This document shows, piece after piece, positions 1 to 33,675 of a stretch of DNA of 64,000 nt. Location: positions 1,352,501-1,416,500 of the forward strand of contig JAQGDQ010000008.1 of assembly GCA_030141605.1 (NCBI GenBank), in the 5' to 3' direction. Below the pieces are notes generated by a model, which did not search any database, was not told the origin of the DNA, and saw only the letters and a program-made list of their open reading frames with translations. Source of the stretch: Tubiluchus corallicola (Eukaryota; Priapulida; Priapulimorpha; Priapulimorphida; Tubiluchidae). Within the stretch, counting starts at the first letter, position 1. Each line of letters opens with the position of its first letter. The position numbers were made by a program, and so were the translations under genes.

Positions 1-1188
1 ATCTCTTTCAAACTGGCGCATTGCAGGAATGTAACCATACCTTGCATCATCATCAACATTGACCATATTGTAAGTATATGGAAGATGTTTGTCGAAATCG
101 CCTGCCCAGTTATGGAAAAACATATTCAGCAGTCCCTGATCACCTCCATCAAAGCTACCATTTTGACAAGCAAATGCTAGTAACTGTTCATATGTTGTCA
201 CATCCGGCTTAAACACGAAAACACCAGAATTGAATAAGTCCGGCCAGCCAACATCAGGAGCTGCGGATAATTCCTGCCTCTGAAATAAATCATCTATGTT
301 TGCCATAACCAAAGTGTCAGCATCAAGGAAAACACATTTACTAAACTGTGTAAGTTTCCAGCAATGCAGTTTCGTGAAACTCACACCCAGCTCAGGTCGT
401 CCCAATGCACTTAGATTTTCATGATCCAAACTGTCAATGATGTCAAAGGTCTCCACCTGATCAAAAGTCTTTTCAAGAAGAGCCTTCATCTGGACAGACA
501 CGTCAGTAGATATCATGATTACCAACTGTCGTTGTGTGCCAGTCTGCTTCAATGAATTGGCAAGTACCAAAGCAGCTGTTGCATACTGATCGTTGGTTGC
601 TAGCGTAACATAAGCCTCGTCTACTGATATTCTATCACACAATGAAGACTTCTTAAACCATTCTGTCACTTTAGTTTTACTTGCAAATTCGTCAACCTTA
701 ACTTTAAAACTTTTCTGGCTTGCAGTCAGTTTATCAATATCACTTCCCAAATTACTCTCATTTTCAAGCCGCTTTTGCTTCACTTTTAGTGCTTGCAGTT
801 TTAATTCGCACTCCTGAATCTTTAATTCATTGTCCTTAAGCTTGCGAGAATTCACAGAAAGCTTCCCACCAGTTTTAAAACTCGAGTAACCACTTTTGGA
901 AATTCTTGACCGAGTGCTTGTGGTGTGTTGCTCCCCCATGCTACCTGTAGCATGTAGCTGCTGCATGTGGCTGACTGTAGCTTCGGCCTTGAAACTACCT
1001 GTGGGGGGTGGGCTGTCTACTGCTGGCACATGATGAGCAATAATTCTCTCCACTAGTTCAGCTTTAATTCCACCAACTGCTAAGCCTTTCTGACGAAGTA
1101 TTTCTTTTAATTGTTCTCTGGTTTTTGTTTTCAGTTCTTCTTCTGTGTATTGCTTTGCAGCCAGTTCATAAAATTTTGGCTCTGCCAT
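1..1188 (-). CDS. GYG: Glycogenin with N-terminal SAP domain (5' part, runs off window)
   Basis: One uninterrupted frame of 396 codons from the ATG at 1188 down to base 1, with no stop, so the gene continues outside the window. Residues 19-53 match a SAP domain (core LKEILRQKGLAVGGIKAELV), a DNA/RNA-binding helix-extended-helix normally found in nuclear proteins. Residues 54-115 are Ser/Thr-rich; 115-145 (charged, KLKDNELKIQECELKLQALK) look like a coiled coil. From Val189 the sequence is glycogenin, a GT8 self-glucosylating primer of glycogen synthesis: VDEAYVTLATNDQYATAAL, the metal-binding DAD at 289-291, WPDLFNSGVFVFKP, GSFDGGDQGLLN. Tyr384/Tyr386 in RYGYIPAM align with the region of the glucosylated tyrosine (Tyr195 of mammals). 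A splice acceptor (TTTTTCACAG, exon from 1198) lies 10 bases upstream of the ATG, implying a 5' UTR intron. Glycogenin identity is very secure; the SAP call rests on motif reading. Confidence 0.93.
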   Translation of the reverse strand, partial: MAEPKFYELAAKQYTEEELKTKTREQLKEILRQKGLAVGGIKAELVERIIAHHVPAVDSPPPTGSFKAEATVSHMQQLHATGSMGEQHTTSTRSRISKSGYSSFKTGGKLSVNSRKLKDNELKIQECELKLQALKVKQKRLENESNLGSDIDKLTASQKSFKVKVDEFASKTKVTEWFKKSSLCDRISVDEAYVTLATNDQYATAALVLANSLKQTGTQRQLVIMISTDVSVQMKALLEKTFDQVETFDIIDSLDHENLSALGRPELGVSFTKLHCWKLTQFSKCVFLDADTLVMANIDDLFQRQELSAAPDVGWPDLFNSGVFVFKPDVTTYEQLLAFACQNGSFDGGDQGLLNMFFHNWAGDFDKHLPYTYNMVNVDDDARYGYIPAMRQFERD

Positions 1189-1198
1189 TATAAACAAG

Positions 1199-1849
1199 CT
1201 GTGAAAAATTTATACTAGTCAAATAAACCAGTTACTGCTGAATCTAGGTCACAGAACTCAAACCAGGTATTGCAAATTTTCAATGTCACTGTCTGATCAA
1301 CACCAGGCTTGTAGGCTGTACAGCTTGTCCTGTATAACAAATGCAGTCATCATTGCTGTCCATGTCTGACTTTGTACTCAGCTAACCGCCTCCTGTCCTG
1401 TAGTTTTCCCAACAAGAATGGTAGAAAGATATAAAACTGTGAGAGACTACTACTTCATGATGCCCAAAGTCAAAAATTCATGTTTGAGTAGCTTTATTAC
1501 GTTTTATCTGTAAAACAAATCATAACAAAATATGACAAACTAATTTGAGCCAAAAAGGAAACAAAGAAATTAATAATAAAGTGAGACTGAATAATCAAAA
1601 TAAACTTACATCATGGCTCTACTACTCTTGACAAATAAATGGTTTAACTGAGACAAAACAACAACAACAACAACTCTCTTAGCCAAGAACAGACTGCCAA
1701 CTAACCAGGTAAACTAGCTCTGTCAGTAGAGCATGACAGAAAGAAGCCAAGTCAAGACTTACATATGAATGCAGTTAAAGGACAGTATAGGGGGGTTTAC
1801 AGAATAAGAGAACACTGAACTAATAAAATAACCTAAAATCCTTCACAAT
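1199..1849. other. AT-rich stretch upstream of the glycogenin coding exon
   Basis: This stretch would hold the first intron and 5' UTR or promoter of the glycogenin gene on the minus strand. I see no further coding exon, no clear promoter element and no transposon ends. Confidence 0.4.
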
Positions 1850-2056
<207 letters not shown>

Positions 2057-3181: not shown

Positions 3182-3653
3182 CAGTGGACTCTCGTTATAA
3201 GAATCAGCTCGATATAAGAATCAAAATCGCGTTTCCCGAATTGATTCGGCATTTTCCTAGTGAAAATCCGCTCGTATAAGAATCACGCTTCTTTCGATAG
3301 TAGAATCAATTTTGGCGCCAACTCCATTGTCTCTCACGCCCTGCTTACAAGGTTCTGCGCAGTGGGCGTGGCGGAAAAAAATTGTGCATTAAAATTTTTT
3401 TAAGGCAATTCTGGCATCATGAAATATTTACCCAACCATGAAATGAAAACATTAGTAATTTTTAGGTCCTTTTTAGGCCAGAAAAACATTATGCTGTTTC
3501 ATGTCGTTTCTAGCGTAATTTCGGGAAATAAATAATTTTTATGTGCATAAAATTTTTTTAAAGCAATTCTGGGTCATGCTCGTTATATGAATCGCTTGTT
3601 ATAAGAATCACTTTGCCTTCTCCCGAGGTGATTCTTATAACGAGAGTCCACTG
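3182..3653. mobile_element. pogo/Tigger-type MITE, 472 bp, perfect TIRs, TA target duplication
   Basis: Both ends carry the same perfect 25-bp terminal inverted repeat, starting CAGTGGACTCTCGTTATAAG on the left and read in reverse on the right. Each end is flanked by TA (3180-3181, 3654-3655). CAGT-starting TIRs with the CTCGTTATAA motif and a TA duplication are typical of the pogo/Tigger branch of Tc1/mariner. There is no transposase reading frame, so it is non-autonomous. The motif ATAAGAATCA recurs inside the element near both ends. Confidence 0.92.
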
Positions 3654-5159: not shown

Positions 5160-7260
5160 CTAAAAAAACACATAAACAAAAATATGAGAAAATTCATTAA
5201 AGTTGCTGCAGATCACGAGATACACTCAAAAACTAAGTTAAAGTTCTTAACCAATGAGCATGATAAATTTAAAGCCAAGCATTATAACTAAGTTAACACC
5301 AAAATAGACAAAAAAGCGTATTAGTGATAAAGCTTAATATGTTACCATATATGTAATTATAAGAGTAAAAATCTTTAAAAAACTTGATCAAGACGTGAAA
5401 TGGTAACTTTTCACAAGCCATGGATAACACCAGTCATACTGAAACTAGAAGCCAACTGTTTAATGTATTTAAAAACTATAACAATGTTTATAATAGAAAT
5501 AAATACAAAGTTTATTCGGACAAACTCAACCATATAAAATATTTAGCAAAAAAAGCTACTATCAAGAAATCTTGCAAAATAGTAAAAATAACACAAAGAA
5601 ACTTTGGTCGACCATAAATAGTTTAATTAATGGTAAATTGCAGCAACGCATAACACCAAAAAAAGGTACACAAAGATGACATTCTCTCAAGTGATATAAC
5701 TGATATCTGTCAAGTCACGAACACTTTTTTTGCTTCCATTGGTCCTTGTATGGCATCTAAAATACAACCCACACAACTGTCATTTCAGTCTTTTCTAGGA
5801 TGCCCTTTGCCAAACAAGTTCTTCTTAACACCCATTATTGAAGCTGAAATAAATGCAGCAATAAATAATTTAAATCAGAACAAAGCCACCGGTCATGAAA
5901 ATATTTATATATCATTCTACAAATCAACTGGTGTCAATATTTCCCCTGTTCTAACTAAATTGTTTAACGCTATTACTGAAGGTACGTTCCCTAGCTGTTT
6001 AAAGATAGCTAAAATTATTCCTATTTATAAAGGCGACTCCCCCGATAACCCCACTAACTATAGGCCAACATCTTTACTTTCACCTATCTCCAAAATTTTT
6101 GAAAAATTGCTTTATAACAGACTAATAAAATTTATAAACGACAACAAAATTCTCTTTAGATTTCAGTTTGGGTTTTGCAAAAGATACTGCACATCTTAGC
6201 TATTGCTGAACTTACAGACAATCTGTTACTAAATATGGATCATAATAAGTACACCTGTGCCATATTTTTAGATTTATCAAAGGCCTTTGATACTGCACAA
6301 CATGATATTTTATTAGCCAAACTTCAACACTATGGTATCAGAGGACTGCCTCTTCAATTGCATATTTACACAATAGAAAACAATATACATCTATAGCGAA
6401 TAAAAACTTAGATCTGGTAAATGTACAGTGTGGTGTTCCTCAAGGCTCAACTCTTGGTCCGATTTACACAAATGATCTCCCTTTAAATACTCAATTACAT
6501 ACTAGACTTTTTGCTGATGATACTAACTTTTTCAGTTCTGATACCAACATAAATCACCTAGAAGAATTTCCTAATGTTGAATTAGCCAAAGTAGATCTAT
6601 GGATGAGAGTCAATTGGCTTTCTATAAACTATTCCAAAACTAAATATATGATGATTGGTAATCCGAGAAAAGTAAAAAAATTGACATTAAATTTTGACAA
6701 TGGGAAATACCAGGAAACAATCTGTACAACAAACAAAATATCTAGGAGTATTAATAGATCACAATCTTTCATGGAAAGTACATATAGTAGTAGTAGTAGT
6801 ACTACTACTACTACTACTACATATACAATATATTGTTAATAAAACCAGTAAAATTATAGGTATTTTTTCAAGAATTAGGCATTTCCTGAATTATGATTCA
6901 AAAAAACTTCTATATTCTCCCTTATTTTCACCGTGTTTAGAATACAGCATACTTACCTATGGCTCAGCATTGTATCCCTTTATTACTAATCAAAATAAAT
7001 TTATAAAACTTTGGACAAATACAAATAGAAGAGCCCATGTTACAGCTTTATACCACCAGCATAAAATCTTAAAACTTCAGGATATATGTAACTTAGAGGT
7101 GGCCAAATTTTTTATATAGATTTAAACACAATATGCTTCCTGAAATTTTTCAGAATTACTACAAATCCGTAGCCCAGATGCACGAGTATCATACACAAGA
7201 GTTGCTGGAATATGTTCAAATATCAACGGAAGCAAGAAAGCAAAGAGGTGTTGAGCTGGG
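5160..7260 (+). mobile_element. Decayed LINE reverse transcriptase (CR1/Jockey-like group)
   Basis: The recognisable order is a linker (LWSTINSLINGK, about 5600), ITDICQVTNTFFASIGPCMA (5690-5760), then RT: INAAINNLNQNKATGHENI, KIIPIYKGDSPDNPTNYRPT, LSPISKIFEKLLYNRLIKFI, FQFGF (to 6199), CAIFLDLSKAFDTAQHDILL (6265), CGVPQGSTLGPIYTNDLPLN (6430), LFADDTNFFS (6510, catalytic ADD), YLGVLIDHNLSWKVHI (6740) and the C-terminal SRIRHFLNYDSKKLLYSPLF. The frame is broken into at least five pieces by stops and shifts. The endonuclease is missing. A simple repeat has expanded inside it at 6781-6822. Confidence 0.85.
6781..6822. repeat. TAG/ACT trinucleotide repeat that forms a small palindrome
   Basis: Five TAG units switch to seven ACT units, which are near reverse complements, so the tract could fold on itself. 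It interrupts the LINE relic just after its WKVHI block. Confidence 0.85.
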
Positions 7261-8329
7261 AATTTAGCCAAATTATAATAGTTACAAATGGATTATAAGC
7301 ATTGACATTGATTACCTTACTTAATTTAATTGCGTCTCGTACGGTGACATTCATTTGTGCCCACATGTCTATACAGATAGAGTTGACATTGCTGAAACAA
7401 CGAAATAACGGTGTTTTCACTAGTGTTCTATGAACTCGATTCTGAAGTAAATAAAATTCAATTCACTAACTTCAATTTAATTCAATTGTAAATTTACTTC
7501 AGTAATTAAGGACCTAACTAAAATTACACACCCCAACAAAGGCATAGTGTAAAACTGTGGAGCTGAGCACTGAGCAGATATTGAGCAGACGATCCAGGCA
7601 TGATCGAGGTACATCTTGATGTAACTATAAAGAAAACAGAAAGAAATTGAAGTGTTTGAACTAAAGTAGCGACGATTTTTCATATTGACGAGTCGTGATC
7701 ATTGTCATATTGAAATTATGAGGCATAGATAATAATATTACTTACGTAATCTCGTAGTAATTATACATATCTATGGTATGAGGATCCATCTTGAAACAAA
7801 ATTAAGAATCTTTGATGGACTTGTGGAAACTGTGCTCTACAACTCAGAATCGTGAACAATCGAAGCACATCACTAAGCAGAAATAGATGCATTTTAAAGA
7901 AGAAACTATAGGAGCATTCTAAGGTTGTATCAGCTTTAAAAACTTACCTGAACCAAATAAACTATGTTTAAACTAACATTGTAGGAATGAAAGGGCCAAA
8001 TAAAATATCAAACCGGGATCTGTATAATACAGTCAAATGGACAGTTAAAATCAAAAGAAGAAAAGTTGACTAACAGGGTCAAAAACTGAAGATTTTGTAA
8101 ACAATTATATAGTTAATAATTGAAAACATTGAAAAAGATTACCTTCCTTCGATTACCGTCGAATGATGGGCGAAGCTAATACTAGCTTTTTGCCCGTGGT
8201 TGCGATTCGTAACTTCACATAATGTTGTGCATCCGATTAAACACTCTAACAGTTAATGCTATGCCATAGTCTTTAATTTTAATGTAGTCTTAAGTATAAG
8301 AGGTGAGCTTTTTAAGTGGTTCATTTACT
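7261..8329. other. Intergenic stretch between two LINE relics
   Basis: It may include untranslated 3' sequence of the upstream LINE relic. I see no coding motif, inverted repeat or RNA gene. The only open frames are short and lack recognisable domains. Confidence 0.35.
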
Positions 8330-9260
8330 TTCTTACCCATCATTTCCATTGTGTTCTTCTTAACGGTATAACCACTAAATGGTGCCCCGTTATAAGTGGT
8401 ATCCCTCAAGGACCCTTGACTGGCCCATACTGCTTCTTTATTTTTATTCATGATATTGCCGATTGTATTTCCCCAGTAACTGCATCCCATTATTTGTTGA
8501 TTTAAATCCCTTTTTTCCAATTTGGGACGATCTTGATCATTCTATTTTACAACATGACTTGGATGAAATTTTAGACTGGTGCATGCAGTAAATGGTTAAA
8601 TCCAGTAAATGTGCTTTACTTAGTATATGCCCTAAATCTTTTACAGTTTACTTTCTAAGTAATACTCAAATAGCCGATAAATGTTGTATCAGAGACTTGG
8701 GAGTAATGATTTCTAATGACCTCAAATGGAATTCCCATGTGAATCATATCATTGCAAAAGAAACCATCGTATTGGCATGATTAAGTGGTGTGTGATATCG
8801 AGAAATGCAGCAGTAATTATTCCTCTCTATAAAGCTGTTGTTCGACCCATTCTGGAATGTGTGTCGGTTGTATGGTCTTCCCAGTATGGTGCTCTCAAGA
8901 ATGCTCTTGAAAGAACTCAGGATAGATGTACTCGTCTTGCTATTGATTTGGATCCCAGTTCAATTTCTACTCTCAAGGAAAGGCATGAGACTATAGACTT
9001 TGTGAACTGCTTCTAAATAATTAGTGAAAATACTGTTCTGACTGAAACAGACCTTTTTCCAGGTCTCACAGAATTCTTCATGGTCATGAGTTTAAGTTAT
9101 TTGTACAACCAGATAGAACCAACGTCAGATCACACTGCCTTGGGCATCGCGTAGTTCAACTATGGAATCATCCTTCATCATCAACCATCAGTGATTCATC
9201 AGTTGACAGTTTCAAAAGGCATATGAGAGAGGATCGTTTACAGATAGTTACCATCTAGGT
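8330..9260 (+). mobile_element. LINE relic, RT C-terminus to 3' end
   Basis: Blocks in order: SGIPQGPLTGPYCFFIFIHD (8395), then after decayed sequence CIRDLGVMISNDLKWNSHVN (8690), IPLYKAVVRPILECVSVVWS (8820), ERTQDRCTRLA, HRVVQLWN (9148), TISDSSVDSFKRHMRE (9187). This is the usual order of the last RT block and C-terminal region of Jockey/CR1-like LINEs. Several stops and shifts show decay. The 3' end, with the text CTTATTTCTTTGG, recurs at about 61590, so the family has at least two copies here. Confidence 0.82.
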
Positions 9261-10090: not shown

Positions 10091-11281
10091 ATGTATTTGT
10101 CACTGACGTTTGGTTTCTATAACATTGATGTCATTGTAATTACATTGTCGTTATAGGTGTAATGATGATTATGATTCAGTGGCTTTGGCTCACCAGTGTA
10201 GTTTAAGAGTTTTTGAATATTTCCGTCACAATGTGAGTTAAAATATTTTCATTTGGCGTAATTACTTGTGGATCTATTAACTAATTTACGAACACTAATC
10301 GCAACTTTATCTTTGGAATATATTGACGACAGTAAACTTTTACTTTACTTCAGTCAACTGTTAAAATGTTCAAAATTCCCCATGAAACACTGGAACATCT
10401 TAGAAGTCACTACAGCATGGTCTTCAACTATCATTGTAATGCTGTTTTCTGCATTAACATTTGAAGAAGCCTTTGAGCATTGTAACTTTTGAGTTTTGAA
10501 ACATATAGTGTGAATTTCATTCTCCGCACATCGACTTTTTATATAAATACAGGTTTTTATAATTGTGAATAATTAGAAAGAAAAATTTGCGTAATCATAT
10601 TGAACAATACTGGAAGTTGATGCAGTAGGACTACTGCCACTGGAGTAGTGATGCACCCACGGGAGAAATAAGTCAAATAAACTCATAAATTAAACTTGTA
10701 CAATTTCTGCTGGTAGCATATGAAATATAAAAGATACAGCAGAGAGTAGCTGCTGGTGGCTCCAAATCAAAATACATGTAGTGTAGTTAAATAAAATCCA
10801 TTCTATGGAATGTTCTTGCAGTATATAATAGTAAACAAAGCTAATGACTTGTTTTACATTTTGCCCACAGCTAGGTGGTCCATGGCAACGATGAAATCTC
10901 ATAAGTGACTGAATGCTGTTGCCAATAGGCCGTTGATGCAATTCAAGAATCAATGAAGTGTGCACAAGTGAATCAGAAGCTTCTTCCACTTAAATTGTGC
11001 TACTTTTTCTACTATGCAGGTGATTTTAAACTCTGTTATAAATTGCAAAATCATTATTGGTGAATAGCTTTGTCAAAGTAATCTCCAAATGTGGGGTTGG
11101 AGCACACTGAACTAGAGTTCCAGTTGCAGTTTTTAATCTGACTTGTGGTATGTGGGTCGCAAGTTTGAATTAATATTTCAAGGGAAAGCCTAGTCAGGTA
11201 AATTACTGCAGCGTGTGCGTAGGCAAAATCTCAGGTGAGAATATGTTATTTTTAACTTTTGCATTTTTTGTCTTTTGGCAG
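10091..11281. other. Upstream intron or intergenic sequence of the MFSD6-like gene
   Basis: The missing first coding exon(s) of the transporter should lie upstream, but I could not find an exon with the right phase and a first membrane helix here. A polypyrimidine tract and acceptor (TTTTGGCAG) close the stretch. Confidence 0.35.
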
Positions 11282-13672
11282 GTGCAGGGTGTCTTATCCC
11301 ATTTCTTTCTGTTTATCTAAAGGAAGAAGGATGGAATCCGTTAGAAGTTGGAATCATTTACACCATCTTTCCTTTTGTAGCTGTGTTAGGCAAGCCGTTA
11401 GTTGGTGCATTAGCTGATTACTTACGTGCACACAAAATGGTCTTGTTAGTCAGCATCATTTTAGCAATGGCTTTTTTCATGGCAATTTTGCTGGTACCTC
11501 CAATTCACCGCCACGGATTTTCCCATCAGGTGATGCCACAATGTTCTGAGGATGGATCATCAGCAAAACTACTGTATTGTGATGAGTGTCAGTTGTTAAA
11601 AGTCACTGAACCTCAGTCGTGCAAACTCTTTTGTCCAGTGTTCAATATCTTGACAAATGGAACTGTCTTGAGGGAGAATGAAATTACAATTGGTATTGAA
11701 TTGTTAGTTTCTGAACCTGTGGCTGATAATCAACAAATGGCATTTCTTTCTAGCACAACTATGCCGTCTAAGCTTTTTACGGGTGATATTACTACAAATG
11801 AAAACATTAATACTAGTACTATTGCTGTTACTACTAAAGCTGCATTTGTAAATCGTTTGATTTGCAATTCTTATAGTGTCACTTCCACAAAAACTGACAA
11901 TCTCTCAGTTATATGTGGTGCAGTAGAACATGCCAATAATCATCTTTCTTCTTGCACAGTCAAGTGTAGGGTGGACATGTTGCAATGTGCCGTCGTGGGG
12001 CAGTCTGAGAAAGGAGTTCGATTAGTTTGGGAATTCTGGGCTCTACTTGCGCTGTATGTTTTCTCAAAGATATTCTCTTCGTCGAACCTGTCATTGCTGG
12101 ACATGATAACGTGTGTATGTCTTGGTGAAAAAGATGAACATTATGGAAAGCAGAGGCTATGGGGAACGCTTGGGTGGGGGATTTCTGCCTCGATTACTGG
12201 CATTGTCATGTCGGAAGTTCGACGCATAAATAATGCCGAGTACATGAACTTCAATCCTGCATTTTATTTGTATTTTGGCTTCATGGTAACAGTGGTTATC
12301 ATTAGTCTCATGCTTACTGTAAAAGTTGATCATCAATCTCAGAATATTGCCAAAGACGTGTTTAAAACTTGTCGAAAGCCGGCTGTATTTGTATTTCTGC
12401 TTGCAGTCATAGCACTTGGAATCCAATTTGGTGTATTAATGGCATTTAGTTTATGGTATCTTGGTGATTTGGGTGCATCAGAACTGCTGTATGGTCTTAA
12501 TTTGACTGCAGAGACTATAGGAGAGGTGCCATTCCTATTTATTTCTGGTTACTTGATAAAGAAAATTGGACATGTTAGGTGCTTGTATCTTGCCTTTTTA
12601 GGACATGGTGCTCGGTACCTTATTTTTTCTTTTCTGAGAAATCCGTGGTGGTCTCTTGCCCTGAATCTTTCTCATGGACTTTCGTGTGGGTTGATGGTTG
12701 CCACAGCTGTGTCCTACTGCAATCTAATTTCACCAAGAGGAACTGCGGCCACTATGCAAGCATTTGTTGCTGTTTTGTTTGACGGAATAGGTAATCATCA
12801 CGTTCATGCATAATTTGTAATACATTTACTCAAGCTATTATTCCTTGAGATGCTGCATACAAGTAATGTGCATGTCCTGCGATCACACTTTAGTGATAGT
12901 ATGCCCAAGAAACTTTAATGCTGCTGTTCTTCAAGTTGATAATAAATGTAAGTTTGCAAAACTATCTTTTTGGTGTAAAGAAATTCAAAAGTAAATTTGT
13001 TGGTCGTAAATCTAGCTTTCAGTTGTGAAGGATTTACGTTATTATATACAAATGCAGTTTAATATTATTACCTAATTTAAATTTGCAAATTTGCTTTGAT
13101 TTTTGAGAGAAGCGTGGACAGAAAATAATTTTCCAATTCACAAACTCTTGAGGCTGCTAACTACAGTGTAGAACAGTTTGCAGGTAGAGTGGTGGTATGG
13201 AACCCTACCACTTCAGGTACAATTAGACTACGTGTCTAATTATCAAAAGTCTTTTCTGTATTTGCAACTGTAACTTTCAAAATGTTGATGTTGCACTTGA
13301 CCTTTTAATTTGTCTCACCCTTGATTTGTATAGCACTGTTATTACTATGAACTATGTTTTTTACTCTTAGGCTCAGGGTTTGGTAGTTTGATAGGAGGTT
13401 TCATATATGAGGAGTACGGAGGTGCCATTACATTTCGAAGTTTTGGCATTGGTGCTATTGTTTGCTGCTGCCTCTATGCCTTAGCTCAGTTGTTTGTCAC
13501 CCCTGTTGCTGAACCTCAAGAAATGGACGACACTCTGGCAGACACTGAAGGAAAAAATTCTAAACTGGAGAAGGAAGAAGTGCTAAAGCAGGTAAAAGAA
13601 CCACTGAATTTTAGCCAGGGCAAGCAAAATATTGAGTATGTGCCCACTCTTCAGCACTTGCTGCCCACCTGA
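11282..13672 (+). CDS. MFSD6: MFSD6-like major facilitator transporter, last two exons
   Basis: Two exons: 11282-12790 and 13371-13672 (stop TGA). The acceptor before 11282 is TTTTGGCAG, the internal donor is GGAATAG/GTAATC and the acceptor TTACTCTTAG. The junction reads through as DGIG-SGFGSLIGGFIYEEYG. The protein is a multi-pass membrane carrier: GCLIPFLSVYLKEEGWNPLE starts after the missing first helix, and LVGALADYLRAHK sits at the MFS motif A position. Two helices are followed by a loop of about 170 residues, Cys- and Thr-rich with several N-X-S/T sites; this large loop is characteristic of MFSD6. Further helices follow, such as VFVFLLAVIALGIQFGVLMA. The tail is hydrophilic, ending HLLPT. 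About 603 residues are present. MFSD6-type proteins are poorly characterised, so the substrate is unknown. Up to one 5' exon or more is missing. Confidence 0.9.
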
Positions 13673-18557: not shown

Positions 18558-19121
18558 TTACAGTAGCTTGTGCAATATGGGCTCAGGAGTATGGGGAAGG
18601 CAGTGGAAAGCATTATTACAAACCTGAATGTAATGACAATGGTGATGAGACAACGTAATGACCATGTTGTTGATAAAATATCCCACAGCTACATCTTTAC
18701 AAAACTCGTGCCAATCAACAATAGTGGTGGGAGACCCTATTTCTAGCTCTTTCCTGATCAGTTCCACCGACAGGTCACAGGTGGTGCACCATAAATATGT
18801 CAAGCCTAAAATTTGCCATAAGGCTAAGTGAGACTTTTCAAAGAAACTGCCCTTTCTAATGTTTACCACTTTAAGGCATTGCTGGCAGTGCCAGGCTCTT
18901 CCGTCGACAGCCCTCGAATATACACCTTCTTGACATGCTTTGTCACATTCTGGGCAGATCATCTCTACTGCCAGTAAACCATATTGCCTGCACAAGTTTG
19001 TGGTGTCCACAATATTTCCACGGAATCTTGCCCCCATTTTCATCAATGTCAGATTAAGAAACTCGTTTCTATCGGGATGTCGATTAGCTGCCACTGCCGT
19101 ATTTTTAATTATAAGAAACAA
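18558..19121 (-). pseudogene. Merlin / ISXO2-like transposase N-terminal fragment
   Basis: A 187-codon frame. Residues 56-82 form a zinc ribbon (ICPECDK, then WHCQQC: C56, C59, C79, C82). Then come NIRKGSFFEKSHLALWQILG and LTYLWCTTCDLSVELIRKEL, and TTIVDWHEFCKDVAV, which is the helical region preceding the DDE domain in IS1016/Merlin transposases. The DDE catalytic domain (family length about 280-300) is absent: similarity stops near residue 150 and the rest runs into repeat sequence. An inactive fragment is therefore likely. Confidence 0.75.
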
Positions 19122-19849
19122 TAATTGTCCACAATTTTCAACACATGAAAATTTAATTGGTTAAAAATTGTTTATTAACATGTCAAATGTCAAAATATGA
19201 ATAATAACTTCAAATGCATCAAAAATTTAATATTGACAATACACTGTAATTATAACTGTTTTTATCACACTAAAAGTCACTGTTGACACTAGCAATTGTG
19301 TTTTTACGCATTAAAATTTAATTCCGTTGTCACAAAAGTATGAAAAAAATTCAAGTTACTATAGGGGCCCAGGAGAATGGGGGAGGGTAGTGGAAAACAA
19401 ATAAAAAGTTCTTTTTGTTACTGTGTTTCTGTCCACAAAAATATTGTATTATATTTAGCATTATTTTTTATTTTAGCATTGTTGTAAATGAAGTATAATT
19501 ATTTGCATTGCTGCCAAATAAATGCTCACAGTCGCTACCCCCACCTACTGTTTTATTTACTGTATACTTGAAACAATGGCTTACTCATTAGTTTTAGGGG
19601 TTTGTGCGACCACAAAACATTATCGTTAAATCGCTTTTTTGTCACTTACTGCATATGAATACATTTGATGGCAAGACAAGTTCTAAGCAAGCCATAATTT
19701 TATGCTGTCTTTCTTCAATTGGGCAGCTTTCTAAAAAAAAACCTGAAAAAACCCACCCCTCAGTATGTCAGGTCATTTAAAAAAACCGAACGCCTGCATA
19801 CTTGTAGTCCCATATGCAATAAATAATTTTAAACTTTCCAAAAGAAAAA

Positions 19850-28294: not shown

Positions 28295-28951
28295 TTAGAC
28301 TCCATCCCTTAATCGCGTAGACACAGCTAGCGTAAGGGACGGGCAGATAGGTTCTGGTCCCTCCGGAGAGAGCTCAGATCCCTTTTTAGCAAGTTTGTCT
28401 GCCTCTTCGTTACCATGTACTCCTTCGTGTCCAGGAATCCATGTAACCAAGACTCGGTTTCTTTTTCCAAGTATGTTCAAGTTTTCAACACAACGTAAAA
28501 CCGAGATAGATTTTACTGAATTGTTTTCAGTAGCTTTAATAGCCGCCTGGCTGTCTGACAGGATGACTATTGATTGATTCTGGAGTCCTTCCGAAGACAT
28601 TATCTCCGCCGCTTGTGAGATGGCGAAAACTTCTGCCTGGAAAACAGTACTCAATTTCCCAAGATAGAAGAACTCCTCCAATACTCTGGACTCAGTCGGA
28701 TACTCGATACGTATACCTGCACCGATCCTTCCGCCCAGTTTGGAACCATCGGTATAACACCTGACACAGTTCCTATCCATTTCGCCTTCCGATTTGATAG
28801 CGATTTCTCTTTCCTGAATCTGGCATTCGAAATTTCTTTCGAACACGCGTGTTCTTTTTCTTAAATCACCCGGCATATGCAACAGTTGGAGGTCGCGCCT
28901 ATAGCTATTGCACACATCGATATGACTTTTAGACTTACCAAAAGTTCCCAC
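28295..28951 (-). pseudogene. LINE RNase H domain
   Basis: A 218-codon open frame. RNase HI signatures in order: CYTDGSK (first Asp) with GAGI, FQAEVFAISQAAEIM (Glu), VILSDSQAAIKA (Asp) and WIPGHEGVHGNEEADKLAKK (His and last Asp). All four catalytic acidic positions appear intact. It is out of frame with the RT upstream: the joining text DTAGLWTAKTVGTFG is readable in this frame back to about 28985, so a single shift near 28985 broke one original ORF2. Confidence 0.88.
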
Positions 28952-28980
28952 GGTCTTCGCTGTCCAGAGCCCCGCCGTAT

Positions 28981-31479
28981 CTATACGGTATGACCCTCGG
29001 ACCGCCTCCGCTCCGACCGAATGAACTCATCTATTGGTGTGATATTCAACAACATCTCCAATGCACCGGTAGGAGTACTTGGGAACGCTGAAGAAATCAT
29101 TAAGCATGCTAATCTCTGTACTTTCTGGAGCATATTCCTGAGGTACATTTTTTCCAACCCGCTGACCCAGGACACACACGCATACGTCATGAAAGGATGC
29201 ACCATTGCCGTGTATATCCATTTCGTGATCCGCGGTTGGATACCCCACGTTTTACCAACAATTTGTCTGCATTGCATAAGTGCCGCCGTCGCCTTGTTGG
29301 TGACCCGTGTTATATGGCTCTTCCAAGTCAGTTTACTGTCTAGGGTTACTCCTAGCAGTTTCGCTTCATTGGAGAGTTGGAGCTTCTGTCCATTCATCCA
29401 GAGATCCCCAATATTTGGATTTCTCTTGTTTGTGAACATGATTACTTCGGTCTTACTACTGCTGAATTCTAGTTCAGTTTTCCTGGACCATTCAGCAGCA
29501 ATGTTAAGTACATTTTGCGCCCTCCTTCTGACCGTCGATACGTTCGCACTAGCTATTAGTACTGCCAGGTCGTCGGCATAGGCTTGTGCATAAATTCCAT
29601 TTTCTTCAAATTCCCTGAGCAGAGAGTTCAAGACACCGTTCCATAGCAAGGGAGACAGTATTCCGCCTTGGGGGTTTCCCTTTACTACTTCCCTCTTTAC
29701 CGTGGCATCACACAGCTCTACTTGGACCGTACGGCACCTTACCATGTTCTCAATCCAGCGGATAAGAACTGGCGATACCTCAAGTTCAAGCAATGCGGCA
29801 GATATGCTATTAAAAGAAACGTTATCGAATGCCCCAACAATATCCAAAAAGACACCTAGTGAGAGCTTCTTTTTAGCAAGACTACGTTCAATACGCTGTA
29901 CATACTCGTGCAGAGCAGTTTCCGTGGAAACGCCTGCGCGGAAGCCATACTGCACATTGGATAGTCTTGCTTGTAATTCAGTATCTTCGTTCAATTGACA
30001 GAGGACTATTCTCTCCAACCATTTCAGTTGAAATGACGTTAATGTTATCATCCGGAAAGACTTGACTTCTAAATAGCTATTCTTTCCGGGTTTCGGCAAA
30101 AATACTCCTTTCCCTTCCTTCCAGGATCTCGGTACATAACCATACCTGAGACATGTCTGGAAAAGCATGAGGTAGTGTTTTTTAATGTATTTCCATCCTT
30201 TCTGCAACAGGACTGGATATATACCATCCGGTCCCGGAGCCTTGAAAGGTTGGAATTCAAACAGTGCCGCTTTCACTCGTTCTTCCGAGCAAATGGAAGC
30301 GATGAATTCCTCATCCACGGTCGCGCAAACAGGCAAGTCCGTGGATGTGTCTGGTTCCGTTACTCGACTCCCTGGTGATAGGGTGTCGAGGAGCCGGTTT
30401 AAAGTTTCCTCCGGTGAACTGGTTAATTTACCGTCTTCTTTATACACACAGCTTAACTGCGCTGCTTTATTTCGGCGGAGGACCTTTACCAACCTAGCAG
30501 TTGGTGCCTGATCTTCCATCTTTTCCGTGAAACTCCGCCAGGATTGGCGTTTCGCCTTCCGGACGGCGTTTTTGAATATAGACTGGGTTAGCTTTCTTGT
30601 TTCCCAGTCTCGTTGATTTTTAGTCTTAGTGGCTCTCCTGCAAGCCCTGCGCGCCTCCTTGCGGAGACGGCTTAGCTCCGGATTCCACCATTTGTTCCCA
30701 TCCTTCTTCCTCTGCCTACGTAATGGGCAAGCAGTTTCATAAGAATGAATAACAGCAGCCTGAACTTCATCAGCCAAATCCTCAATATCCTCATTGGAGG
30801 ACACCTTGTATTCCCGGTTCAGTTCTGGAAGTTTATGCTCAAGTTCTTCCGCATACTTTTCCCAGCAAGTACGGCGGATGTTCCTGATGAGTGGGTTTTC
30901 TTTTGAAATACTGCTTTTCACCAGGAATCTTATATACATGTGGTCCGACAGCGATGGCACGTCACTGACATACCAATCGCGTACTATGTCCCCTGCATGC
31001 AGATTCCTCAGTGTCAAGTCTAGCACCTCTTCTCTTGCTTTTGTGCGGAACGTTGGTTTATGGCCAACATTACAGAACTCAAGATTAGCACTTGCACAAT
31101 ACTTCAAGAGTTCCTCACCCCTGTCGTTGACATCGGTGGAACCCCATAACGTATGATGCGCATTAGCATCAGTCCCCACAATAATTGGAGTTTTATCGCC
31201 GTCCCCGAATGATATCAGTTCCCTGAGTAACATAGGGGGAGCCGGTTGATCATGCACCATGTATGCCGAGGCGAAAATGAACTCATCTCCATCCCGGCAC
31301 ACATTTTTTGCTTTAACCACCACAATGTCTGTATTCGAGAACACTGGAAGTAAAAAGCATTTTAGGTTAGGAGTGGCATAAATGCACGCCCGAGGCCTTT
31401 CTCCATTCCGGTTTCCCTGGAAACCGTCCTCGGAGTTTACCCCTAACTTCCCCACCGTGCGTCCAGGGTTCCTGTACAA
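28981..31479 (-). pseudogene. LINE ORF2: AP-endonuclease (C-terminal two thirds) and reverse transcriptase
   Basis: An 832-codon open frame. Endonuclease: GTDANAHHTLWGSTDVNDRG (residues 102-121) and SLSDHMYIRF (176-185, the catalytic SDH). RT: FQPFKAPGPDGIYP (409-422), FRMITLTSFQLKWLERIVL (475-493), YGFRAGVSTETAL (511-523), GVFLDIVGAFDNVSF (542-556, first catalytic Asp), GNPQGGILSPLLWN (601-614), AYADDLAVLI (633-642, catalytic Asp pair) and the C-terminal LGVTLDSKLTWKSHITRVT. Catalytic residues are intact. The start of the endonuclease lies in another frame at 31367-31702. The frame ends at TAG just before RNase H. Confidence 0.92.
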
Positions 31480-31702
31480 AGACTAACCCGGTACGTATGT
31501 GTTTTACAACATCCTGCAAGTTGTAACTCGCAGCTTTGCTTTTGTGAAGATTGATTTGCCAGCACTCAATACCAGAGACACTTTGTGCTGGCTTCTCACC
31601 TATTTTATCCAAATTGTCCCCGGAAATAACATTCAATCTACCGTGGGTATTTCCACTGAAGACTGTCTGCGGCCGGGATTTTACTTTAGCCCCTGTTCCC
31701 AT
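31367..31702 (-). pseudogene. LINE ORF2: start of the AP-endonuclease domain
   Basis: This 111-codon frame holds CWQINLHKSKAASYNLQDVV and GLVFVQEPWTHGGEV, the first endonuclease blocks (catalytic N of QINLHK and E of QEPW). It overlaps the long RT frame by about 110 bases in a different frame, so one frameshift between about 31370 and 31440 divides the domain. Confidence 0.85.
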
Positions 31703-31714
31703 ACTTTTCTGTAT

Positions 31715-32425
31715 TTACGTTTCCATACTGGACTCAGGTGCCTTCATCTGCGATTGCTCGACAGACGGCAGCTCCTTTGTTCCAGTGGCAACGTCGGGGG
31801 TTTTTCCACCCTCGGTACTCACTTCTGGACCCTTATCCACCGTTTGAACAGGTGTTTCCGGTTCCTTGGCTTTCCCTTGGTTTTCCTTTTTCTTTTTGGA
31901 CTGGAACGTGACTCGTTTGCATCCGGCGTACGGAGCAAACTCCTGTCGTTCCAGACCTGACAGGGACGGTTCCCAGACCGCTACTACGTGTAGCATTCCG
32001 CCGACCCCTTTTGACCCACCGCGGACCTCCATGTGCTTCCGTTGGAGTTCCGAATTACATCGGTCCACCAACGTCAGCAGATCCTCGATTTTGATGTCAT
32101 CCTCATCCGGAATCCAAACCCCGAAGGTCCTTGCTGGCGGAAGATCTTTCGGTCCTCTCGCCTCGTACCCCGGGTGGCCCACAGATGGGTTTTCAATGTC
32201 CAGGACAAGCTGTTTTGCCCAGTCCAGGGTTTTCTCGTCCTTGCACACGACATGGACTTTACCTTCATGTAGGTAGGTCCTCTCAATGCGGACAAGAAAC
32301 CCCGGATCCGTTCTGAGAAGGACACGGTTGATCCCCGACTGTATTGCCCGTAAATCCGAGCCGTCCAGAGGGTCTTCTCCCGCATCCTTTTTTGTAATTT
32401 TAAGGTGTTGGTCGCCGGACTTCAC
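31715..32425 (-). CDS. LINE ORF1, C-terminal part (DUF4780-like)
   Basis: A 236-codon frame with DPLDGSDLRAIQSGINRVLL, FLVRIERTYLHEGKVHVVCK, DLPPARTFGVWIPDEDDIKI and GGMLHVVAVWEPSLSGLERQ. This resembles DUF4780, a domain I know from ORF1-like proteins of arthropod non-LTR elements; it is thought to take part in RNA or protein assembly, but its function is not established. A Lys-rich stretch and a Pro/Glu/Thr-rich tail follow. Confidence 0.65.
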   Translation of the reverse strand: MKSGDQHLKITKKDAGEDPLDGSDLRAIQSGINRVLLRTDPGFLVRIERTYLHEGKVHVVCKDEKTLDWAKQLVLDIENPSVGHPGYEARGPKDLPPARTFGVWIPDEDDIKIEDLLTLVDRCNSELQRKHMEVRGGSKGVGGMLHVVAVWEPSLSGLERQEFAPYAGCKRVTFQSKKKKENQGKAKEPETPVQTVDKGPEVSTEGGKTPDVATGTKELPSVEQSQMKAPESSMET

Positions 32426-33129
32426 AGCCTTGGCATATGAGGCCTTACTGCGGCCTCACCCTTTTGACCTTCCTCTCCCTTACGCCCCGCTTGCCCGGAG
32501 TCACCCCGGGGTCGCTTCACGTTCGAGATCGGACTTGGAGTTGAGAGAGCGCTGCTCGTTCTCTTTTTCACCACCGATGGGTTAGGAGTGGGAGCCTCCT
32601 CCTGATTGGCGATTGACATAGCCGACACACCTTTCAGAAGTCGTCTCTTTTCCTTCTTCCGCCGGTTTTTTTCATGATTTTTCCCCATCGGTTTCGATTC
32701 CTCGGGCTTGCTGGGCTCATTTGGAGCACCAGGATTCCGGGTATCTACTCCTTCTGGGGCAGGTACGGTGTTCAGAGTACACTCTGACGATGCCGAACCT
32801 TTACTGGTCTTTGTAGTCCATGGATTCCGTTTTTCAGAGACTTGCATGTCCTCAGTTTTCGTTTCTTCCAAGAACTCCGTAATTTTCGGCTGTTCTGGTT
32901 TCAAATTTGGTTCACGGGAAGATCCGGCTTTCACCGGCTTGTTCCCTGCAGCTTCGTTTAGATTTTGATGACGGGAAGATCCGGCTTTCACCGGCTTGTT
33001 CCCAGCAGGTTTTAATTTTGTTAGGGTAGTGAGCCGTGCTGGGCTCGATTTTTCTTTCTTGTACATTTCATTAGTTTTGTGGTTTTTTAAAACGGGTAAA
33101 CTCCAACCCAGGAGCCGACTGGCACTCAC
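32422..33129 (-). CDS. LINE ORF1, N-terminal basic low-complexity part
   Basis: A 235-codon frame, Lys/Pro/Ser-rich, without a recognised fold. It contains a tandem duplication of AGNKPVKAGSSR (nucleotides about 32928-33010). KNHEKNRRKKEKRRLLKG is a strongly basic stretch that could bind RNA or act as a nuclear signal. The frame overlaps the next one by 4 bases, so the two parts of ORF1 were probably one protein before a frameshift. Confidence 0.6.
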   Translation of the reverse strand: MSASRLLGWSLPVLKNHKTNEMYKKEKSSPARLTTLTKLKPAGNKPVKAGSSRHQNLNEAAGNKPVKAGSSREPNLKPEQPKITEFLEETKTEDMQVSEKRNPWTTKTSKGSASSECTLNTVPAPEGVDTRNPGAPNEPSKPEESKPMGKNHEKNRRKKEKRRLLKGVSAMSIANQEEAPTPNPSVVKKRTSSALSTPSPISNVKRPRGDSGQAGRKGEEGQKGEAAVRPHMPRL

Positions 33130-33675
33130 CAGCCCCCTCCGAACGGAAGAGATCAGGGACCTAGTACTGACGGACTTGTCAACGAACGGTGGCCTCGGGA
33201 ATGCCCCCCCCCATGCACGCGCAGGCCCCTATCCAGTCGCCAACTGGAGCTACGAGTGCGAGGAGATTTTCACGAGTTGACGGAGGCAGCCCTCCCAGGT
33301 GGCTAGACCAGGAGCGGGCCTCTAGAACTACCTCGTGGCCGCGGCACGGAGCGCGTTTTAGACCTGTACCCTCCTTCATGATGAGATTCCGTCATAGGTT
33401 CCTTCCCTCCCCCGCCTTTAGAGACAAGGTTCATGACAGCCGGTGGCCTTTGGAGGACAGACTCAGATTACGGAATGGGGAAGACTACGGAGAAAACAGG
33501 CTTCTCGCTTTCGCTTGTTCCTGAGTTCCTAATTCTCCCACCATGCCCCATCCTTGTTCATTCCCCAGCAGCTAGGGTGTTCCTAGTCAGCCAGAATCAT
33601 TTGATAACCCTCGGGCCCATCATCTGTTGCCCGCACGACACCACGTGGAGGTCAGGAACATGCCGCGCAACTTGA

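Follow-up and report, generated by a model that had tools for sequence, protein, structure and literature searches.

Members of the Belpaoviridae (BEL/Pao) are retrotransposons with LTRs of 0.2-1.2 kb, and the ICTV profile of the family describes no GT8 or SAP domain in Gag (PMC8742986). A term search of a metazoan BEL/Pao survey, within the part of its text available, returned 0 occurrences of 'glyco' and 0 of 'sap' (PMC3118150). The nearest precedent that we found comes from bdelloid LTR elements carrying GDSL or DEDDy domains: going by the available portion of the source, Vesta, Juno and TelKA have captured a GDSL esterase, a DEDDy exonuclease and env. They share with the element described here a foreign enzyme with intact catalytic residues, but the bdelloid captures, as given in that portion, form a separate ORF3, whereas here the domain lies inside Gag and is a glycosyltransferase (PMC5408684). 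Among the matches listed for the open-access literature, covering titles and the starts of abstracts, there was no report of a retroelement Gag with a glycosyltransferase or glycogenin.

The window analysed here is a 64,000-nucleotide stretch of Tubiluchus corallicola (C215:1352501-1416500 in genome G000, 343.5 Mb). L numbers denote stretches fetched from this host genome, and window base x corresponds to base x+7500 of L009. Window positions 1-1847 are, with near certainty, the 5' part of a BEL/Pao LTR retrotransposon that inserted recently and occupies C215:1348045-1354347. Its features are as follows.

1..1188, minus strand: N-terminal 396 residues of the Gag-Pol frame, which goes on outside the window
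10..624, minus strand: glycogenin-type GT8, residues 189-393; the domain ends outside the window
37..39, minus strand: Tyr384, aligned with the acceptor tyrosine Y195 of glycogenin-1
316..324, minus strand: DxD metal motif D289-A-D291, aligned with glycogenin D102/D104
718..861, minus strand: coiled-coil helix, about residues 110-157, from the structure model; a similar stretch is seen by reading in GT8-less relatives
1033..1134, minus strand: SAP domain, residues 19-52 (Pfam PF02037)
1189..1437, minus strand: leader from the 5' LTR to the Gag start codon
1438..1847, minus strand: 5' LTR (TG...CA), equal to L009:8938-9347
1848..1852, no strand: target-site duplication ATAAT, also present beside the other LTR
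C215:1348045-1348455 (L009:3045-3455), outside the window: 3' LTR, partner of window 1438..1847

The two LTRs (410 and 411 bp, within the family range of PMC8742986) are identical in 410 of 411 aligned columns, with 0 mismatches and 1 gap column. A polypurine tract, AAGGGGGCGG, interrupted by one C, precedes the 3' LTR; no primer-binding site, which in this family has 18 nt and fits tRNA-Arg or tRNA-Gly, was recognised by eye in the 80 bases after the 5' LTR. The ATAAT duplication sits at the edge of a low-complexity AAT/GAT array, so that this short duplication is by itself weak, with an appreciable likelihood of matching by chance. A second copy, L026, is flanked by CTAGT at either end, with terminal repeats identical at 421 of 422 positions, while the flanks of L016 (AAATT, CGCCC) and L035 (CATCT, TGACA) are unlike; this comparison leaves aside L010, L022, L024, L028, L030 and L031, whose fetched stretches ended too soon.

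Several other features lie in the window. A 472-bp repeat (3182-3653) with exact 25-bp inverted ends (CAGTGGACTCTCGTTATAAGAATCA; by eye) and TA flanks resembles a MITE of pogo/Tc1 type. A long LINE at 28295-33228 (minus strand) has an endonuclease and RT frame of 833 aa, a frame for RNase H and, upstream, one with DUF4780, and broken LINE-type RT frames lie at 5654-7119 (plus strand; RVT_1 19.8 bits in 5654-6196, under the cut-off). The 524-aa frame of an MFS_1_like transporter at 11239-12810 (plus strand, 248.7 bits) is probably a host gene. A 200-aa frame with CxxC pairs at 18558-19160 (minus strand) has no Pfam match; it resembles an ISXO2-type transposase remnant. As a candidate telomere repeat, TTAGG matched 74 + 196 times, its backward control 38 + 79 times. 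An arthropod setting receives no support from the cuticle family PF00379, which gave 0 matches in the genome, a weak result, as control searches were equally silent.

A first-pass annotation of positions 1..1188 had proposed a SAP domain fused to glycogenin in one reading frame. The frame is real, and both domains score above their Pfam cut-offs within it: PF02037 reaches 30.6 bits (E 2.6e-07) against a curated cut-off of 23.9, and PF01501 reaches 51.2 bits over residues 194-362. The 188 residues said to precede GT8 are likewise free of stops, in a minus-strand frame that is open over window 1-1209 with an ATG at 1188. The proposed span, by contrast, is an effect of the window edge, which cuts the frame; it crosses base 1, ends at L009:4108 and measures 1533 aa from stop to stop in the contig. 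Among solved structures, glycogenin-1 chains are the best relatives (query residues 189-393, E 1.9e-78), and the window copy has a 3-residue insert ahead of the acceptor tyrosine in the alignment with glycogenin. An alignment-based structure model (mean pLDDT 56.0) renders SAP as two helices (73-86 per block of ten), a long helix with residues 111-150 at 52-77, and a good first part of GT8 (residues 191-250, 75-89), the remainder of which is weak. The single-sequence model is poor (40.7), yet likewise gives SAP two helices.

Beyond GT8, Pfam searches by pieces found DUF1759 (Gag), RVT_1 under the cut-off and the first part of Peptidase_A17 in the window element, with a DUF5641 piece downstream of the frame. 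Gag-Pol of this copy thus begins with SAP, coiled coil, glycogenin GT8 and capsid (DUF1759), and zinc knuckles (CFNC...) can be read by eye in its Gag where Pfam gives no match. Most of the RNase H-integrase region is missing, so the copy is probably not autonomous. A fuller copy, L010 (C1810), has one open polyprotein frame of 2217 aa in which the pieces run SAP, GT8, DUF1759, RVT_1, Peptidase_A17, Integrase_H2C2, rve and DUF5641; here SAP (21.3 bits), RVT_1 and rve are all below Pfam cut-offs, and RNase H, a domain expected of the family, had no Pfam match in the pieces at E 0.01. The window copy has the same order as far as it goes, and this order identifies both as BEL/Pao. LTRs, 5-bp target-site duplication, Gag-Pol frame, DUF1759, Peptidase_A17, RT, integrase and DUF5641 are shared with the family; glycogenin GT8 and SAP in the Gag N-terminus set these elements apart.

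The element is repetitive. The 396-aa query gave at least 100 matches in its own genome (105 of 143 candidates scored), many with SAP and GT8 in one line and with open frames of up to 2217 aa, and the fetched copies fall into about eight groups. BEL RT matches numbered at least 143 (142 of 327 candidates scored) and were merged to 136 places, with GT8 upstream on the same strand within 6 kb in 37. By domain content, 25 of these places have GT8 and SAP, 12 have GT8 without a SAP match, 12 have SAP without GT8, and 87 have neither; the last are presumably truncated copies or members of other BEL families. That the fusion is an assembly artefact can be rejected with hardly any reservation, as the order SAP-GT8-pol is repeated across the genome, in many contigs and divergent groups. 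No relatives were found in collections of genome contigs and viral contigs, which hold no eukaryotes.

Counting by GT8 instead, 62 of 100 protein-match rows were taken as places with this type of domain; the 38 left out were extra pieces of listed loci, N-terminal-only matches and short fragments (e.g. C2296, C23, C1409). RT lies within 6.5 kb downstream in 37 of the 62, and exons of host glycogenin (C2137, C2318) account for two of the remaining 25. Another GT8 (L040, C2181:11500-12400, 39.4 bits) lies in a 2870-aa open frame and is not among the glycogenin-type matches, and frames of 383-488 aa dispersed over the genome hold 20 more GT8 matches. Among the copies, L013 (5675-8956, minus strand), L020 and L021 show a different BEL-type frame, 29% identical to L010 in RT or A17, on the opposite strand beside the GT8-bearing gag, a nested insertion in three near-identical places. 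L015 contains a direct duplication of about 1.6 kb within pol (5523-8751; 96% identical).

Host glycogenin itself is encoded elsewhere. At L033 (C2137) the domain of a normal-looking glycogenin is divided into five pieces or more; identity to rabbit glycogenin is 63-78% in four and 50% in one, and identity to the retroelement protein is 53-67%. C2318 is a second, partial candidate. No SAP match was found on C2137. The first-pass annotation had envisaged a nuclear-anchored cellular glycogen primer, that is, a single host gene in which SAP binds glycogenin to the nucleus or to nucleic acid. One open frame does hold both domains, but it also contains pol in the same frame between LTRs, the same type of GT8 recurs with BEL RT downstream across the genome, and the host has its separate glycogenin in several exons. 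Together these rule out a single host SAP-glycogenin gene at this locus, and we regard that reading as very improbable: the protein is the Gag N-terminus of a repetitive BEL/Pao element. A nucleic-acid role for SAP stays plausible; a nuclear glycogen-primer gene does not.

Comparison with related Gag proteins further reverses which domain was added. The annotation treated SAP as the addition to glycogenin, yet SAP and coiled coil also occur in related Gag without GT8, so the added piece is GT8. In C417 (L046 and L048, two pieces) Gag consists of SAP, coiled coil and capsid (DUF1759 22.4 bits, under the cut-off), and no GT8 was found there; in C2311 (L038) it consists of coiled coil and capsid, lacking both SAP and GT8. 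The C2055 piece (L047) had no Pfam match. Compared with these two Gags, GT8 has the appearance of an insertion, placed after the final 'KV.(D/E)W' of the coiled coil and ahead of the capsid, and its absence from a related family that has SAP marks it as accessory. With partial RT matches uncorrected, SAP lies 3.1-3.7 kb ahead of RT in all 25 places that have both SAP and GT8. Where SAP occurs without GT8, the distance is 2.6-2.8 kb in 11 of 12 places and 1.3 kb in the other.

In a tree of 14 retroelement GT8s, two host glycogenins and rabbit, with only these three cellular sequences, the retroelement GT8s form one side of a branch (support 99/98). They lack introns, which fits capture of a spliced message. 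We infer a single, old capture of a spliced glycogenin message as the source of GT8, followed in some lineages by its loss or exchange. Elements with GT8 are not one clade in the RT tree (p-AU 0.020; 7 rows against 4, with long branches and one half-empty row) or in the capsid tree (p-AU 0.018; 8 rows against 2, with long branches), so GT8 seems dispensable. In the capsid tree C417 is placed with the GT8-bearing L015, L032 and L036 (99/98). The RT tree joins it to L015 and C2055 (100/97), and a larger RT tree to L015, C2055 and C19 (100/98). Such scatter would arise because GT8 was lost or because gag was exchanged between elements, and we favour loss.

A dispensable domain might be a passenger with no function in the element, and SAP-only relatives without GT8 have spread too. 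Rates of change make this improbable. Identity to L010 in GT8 and RT, respectively, is 57.3 and 57.3% for L009, 59.0 and 61.1% for L011, 60.6 and 62.6% for L022, and 63.3 and 67.1% for L025. Across seven between-family pairs, in which synonymous sites are saturated or nearly so, dN in GT8/RT is 0.298/0.251, 0.307/0.294, 0.306/0.346, 0.373/0.350, 0.384/0.374, 0.422/0.398 and 0.423/0.401; GT8 thus appears about as conserved as RT, which speaks against a passenger. So does the pooled within-family pN/pS of 0.33 (45 nonsynonymous and 36 synonymous changes; binomial p 2e-06), calculated from five of nine close pairs, the other four sharing a member with these. The capsid gives 0.21 on the same five pairs, and RT 0.20 on the four that have RT. 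Single pairs give a GT8 omega of 0.96 (L009/L017, the window pair) and 0.69 (L015/L036). Judged from these substitution patterns, purifying selection on GT8 is shown.

The element and metazoan glycogenin (GYG1) have in common GT8, the DxD motif, the acceptor tyrosine and an HFxGxxKPW motif; in the element the domain is intronless and lies inside Gag, after SAP and coiled coil. One phmmer search with the linker (residues 415-545) gave no glycogenin match, so that no glycogen-synthase-binding tail was recognised; a single negative search of this kind is weak evidence that the tail is absent. Conservation of individual residues was surveyed in 27 fetched copies, which remain of 34 rows once 7 duplicates are removed (L001, the host loci and L040 excluded beforehand), and we assume for the aligned positions the metal, UDP-glucose and acceptor-tyrosine roles that they have in glycogenin. 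In glycogenin numbering, all 27 copies keep K86, D104 and D125, 26 keep D102, N133, D160 and D163, and 25 keep S134 and Q164. The acceptor tyrosine Y195 is kept in 26 of 26 copies, and H212, G215 and K218 in 25 of 25. Alterations occur in L015 (D102E, turning DxD into ESD, with the remaining tested residues kept), L014 (D160V), L032 (N133S), L026 (S134C), L028 (Q164R) and L035 (S134I, D163G and Q164P).

Glycogenin is a dimer. GT8 could accordingly serve Gag as a structural dimer or UDP-sugar sensor and not as an enzyme, as its position between coiled coil and capsid and the altered active sites of some copies would allow. We consider this unlikely, though clearly less so than a passenger, given an acceptor tyrosine present in every copy surveyed for it, metal and UDP residues that are nearly always kept, and about 50-65% identity of the retroelement GT8s to rabbit over the longest piece. 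The GT8 of the element is, on balance, predicted to be catalytically competent. The account as a whole, of a BEL/Pao Gag with a captured, probably active self-glucosylating GT8 whose purpose we can only infer, seems to us rather likely.

Most likely, in our view, GT8 would still bind UDP-glucose and Mn2+ and act within Gag as glycogenin does, adding glucose to its own tyrosine; Gag, or its particles, would then bear short glucan chains. Host glycogen synthase might lengthen these, although extension is doubtful, as no matching tail was found. Such glucan would hold particles in glycogen-rich cytoplasm or alter their surface; SAP and the zinc knuckles would handle nucleic acid. That Gag primes glucan on its own tyrosine, leaving particles sugar-coated or bound to glycogen granules, for example in reaching glycogen-rich eggs, is a possibility that we put forward tentatively. 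Use of the glucan for tethering or coating is, taken singly, slightly more doubtful still.

Automatic annotation may label copies of such elements as glycogenin genes. If our reading is correct, a self-glucosylating Gag would be the first described with a built-in glycosyltransferase, as far as the literature searched shows, and self-glucosylation is a directly testable prediction. A domain of glycogen synthesis that is retained in Gag, with its acceptor tyrosine, in about eight element groups would connect the particles of retroelements with carbohydrate metabolism.
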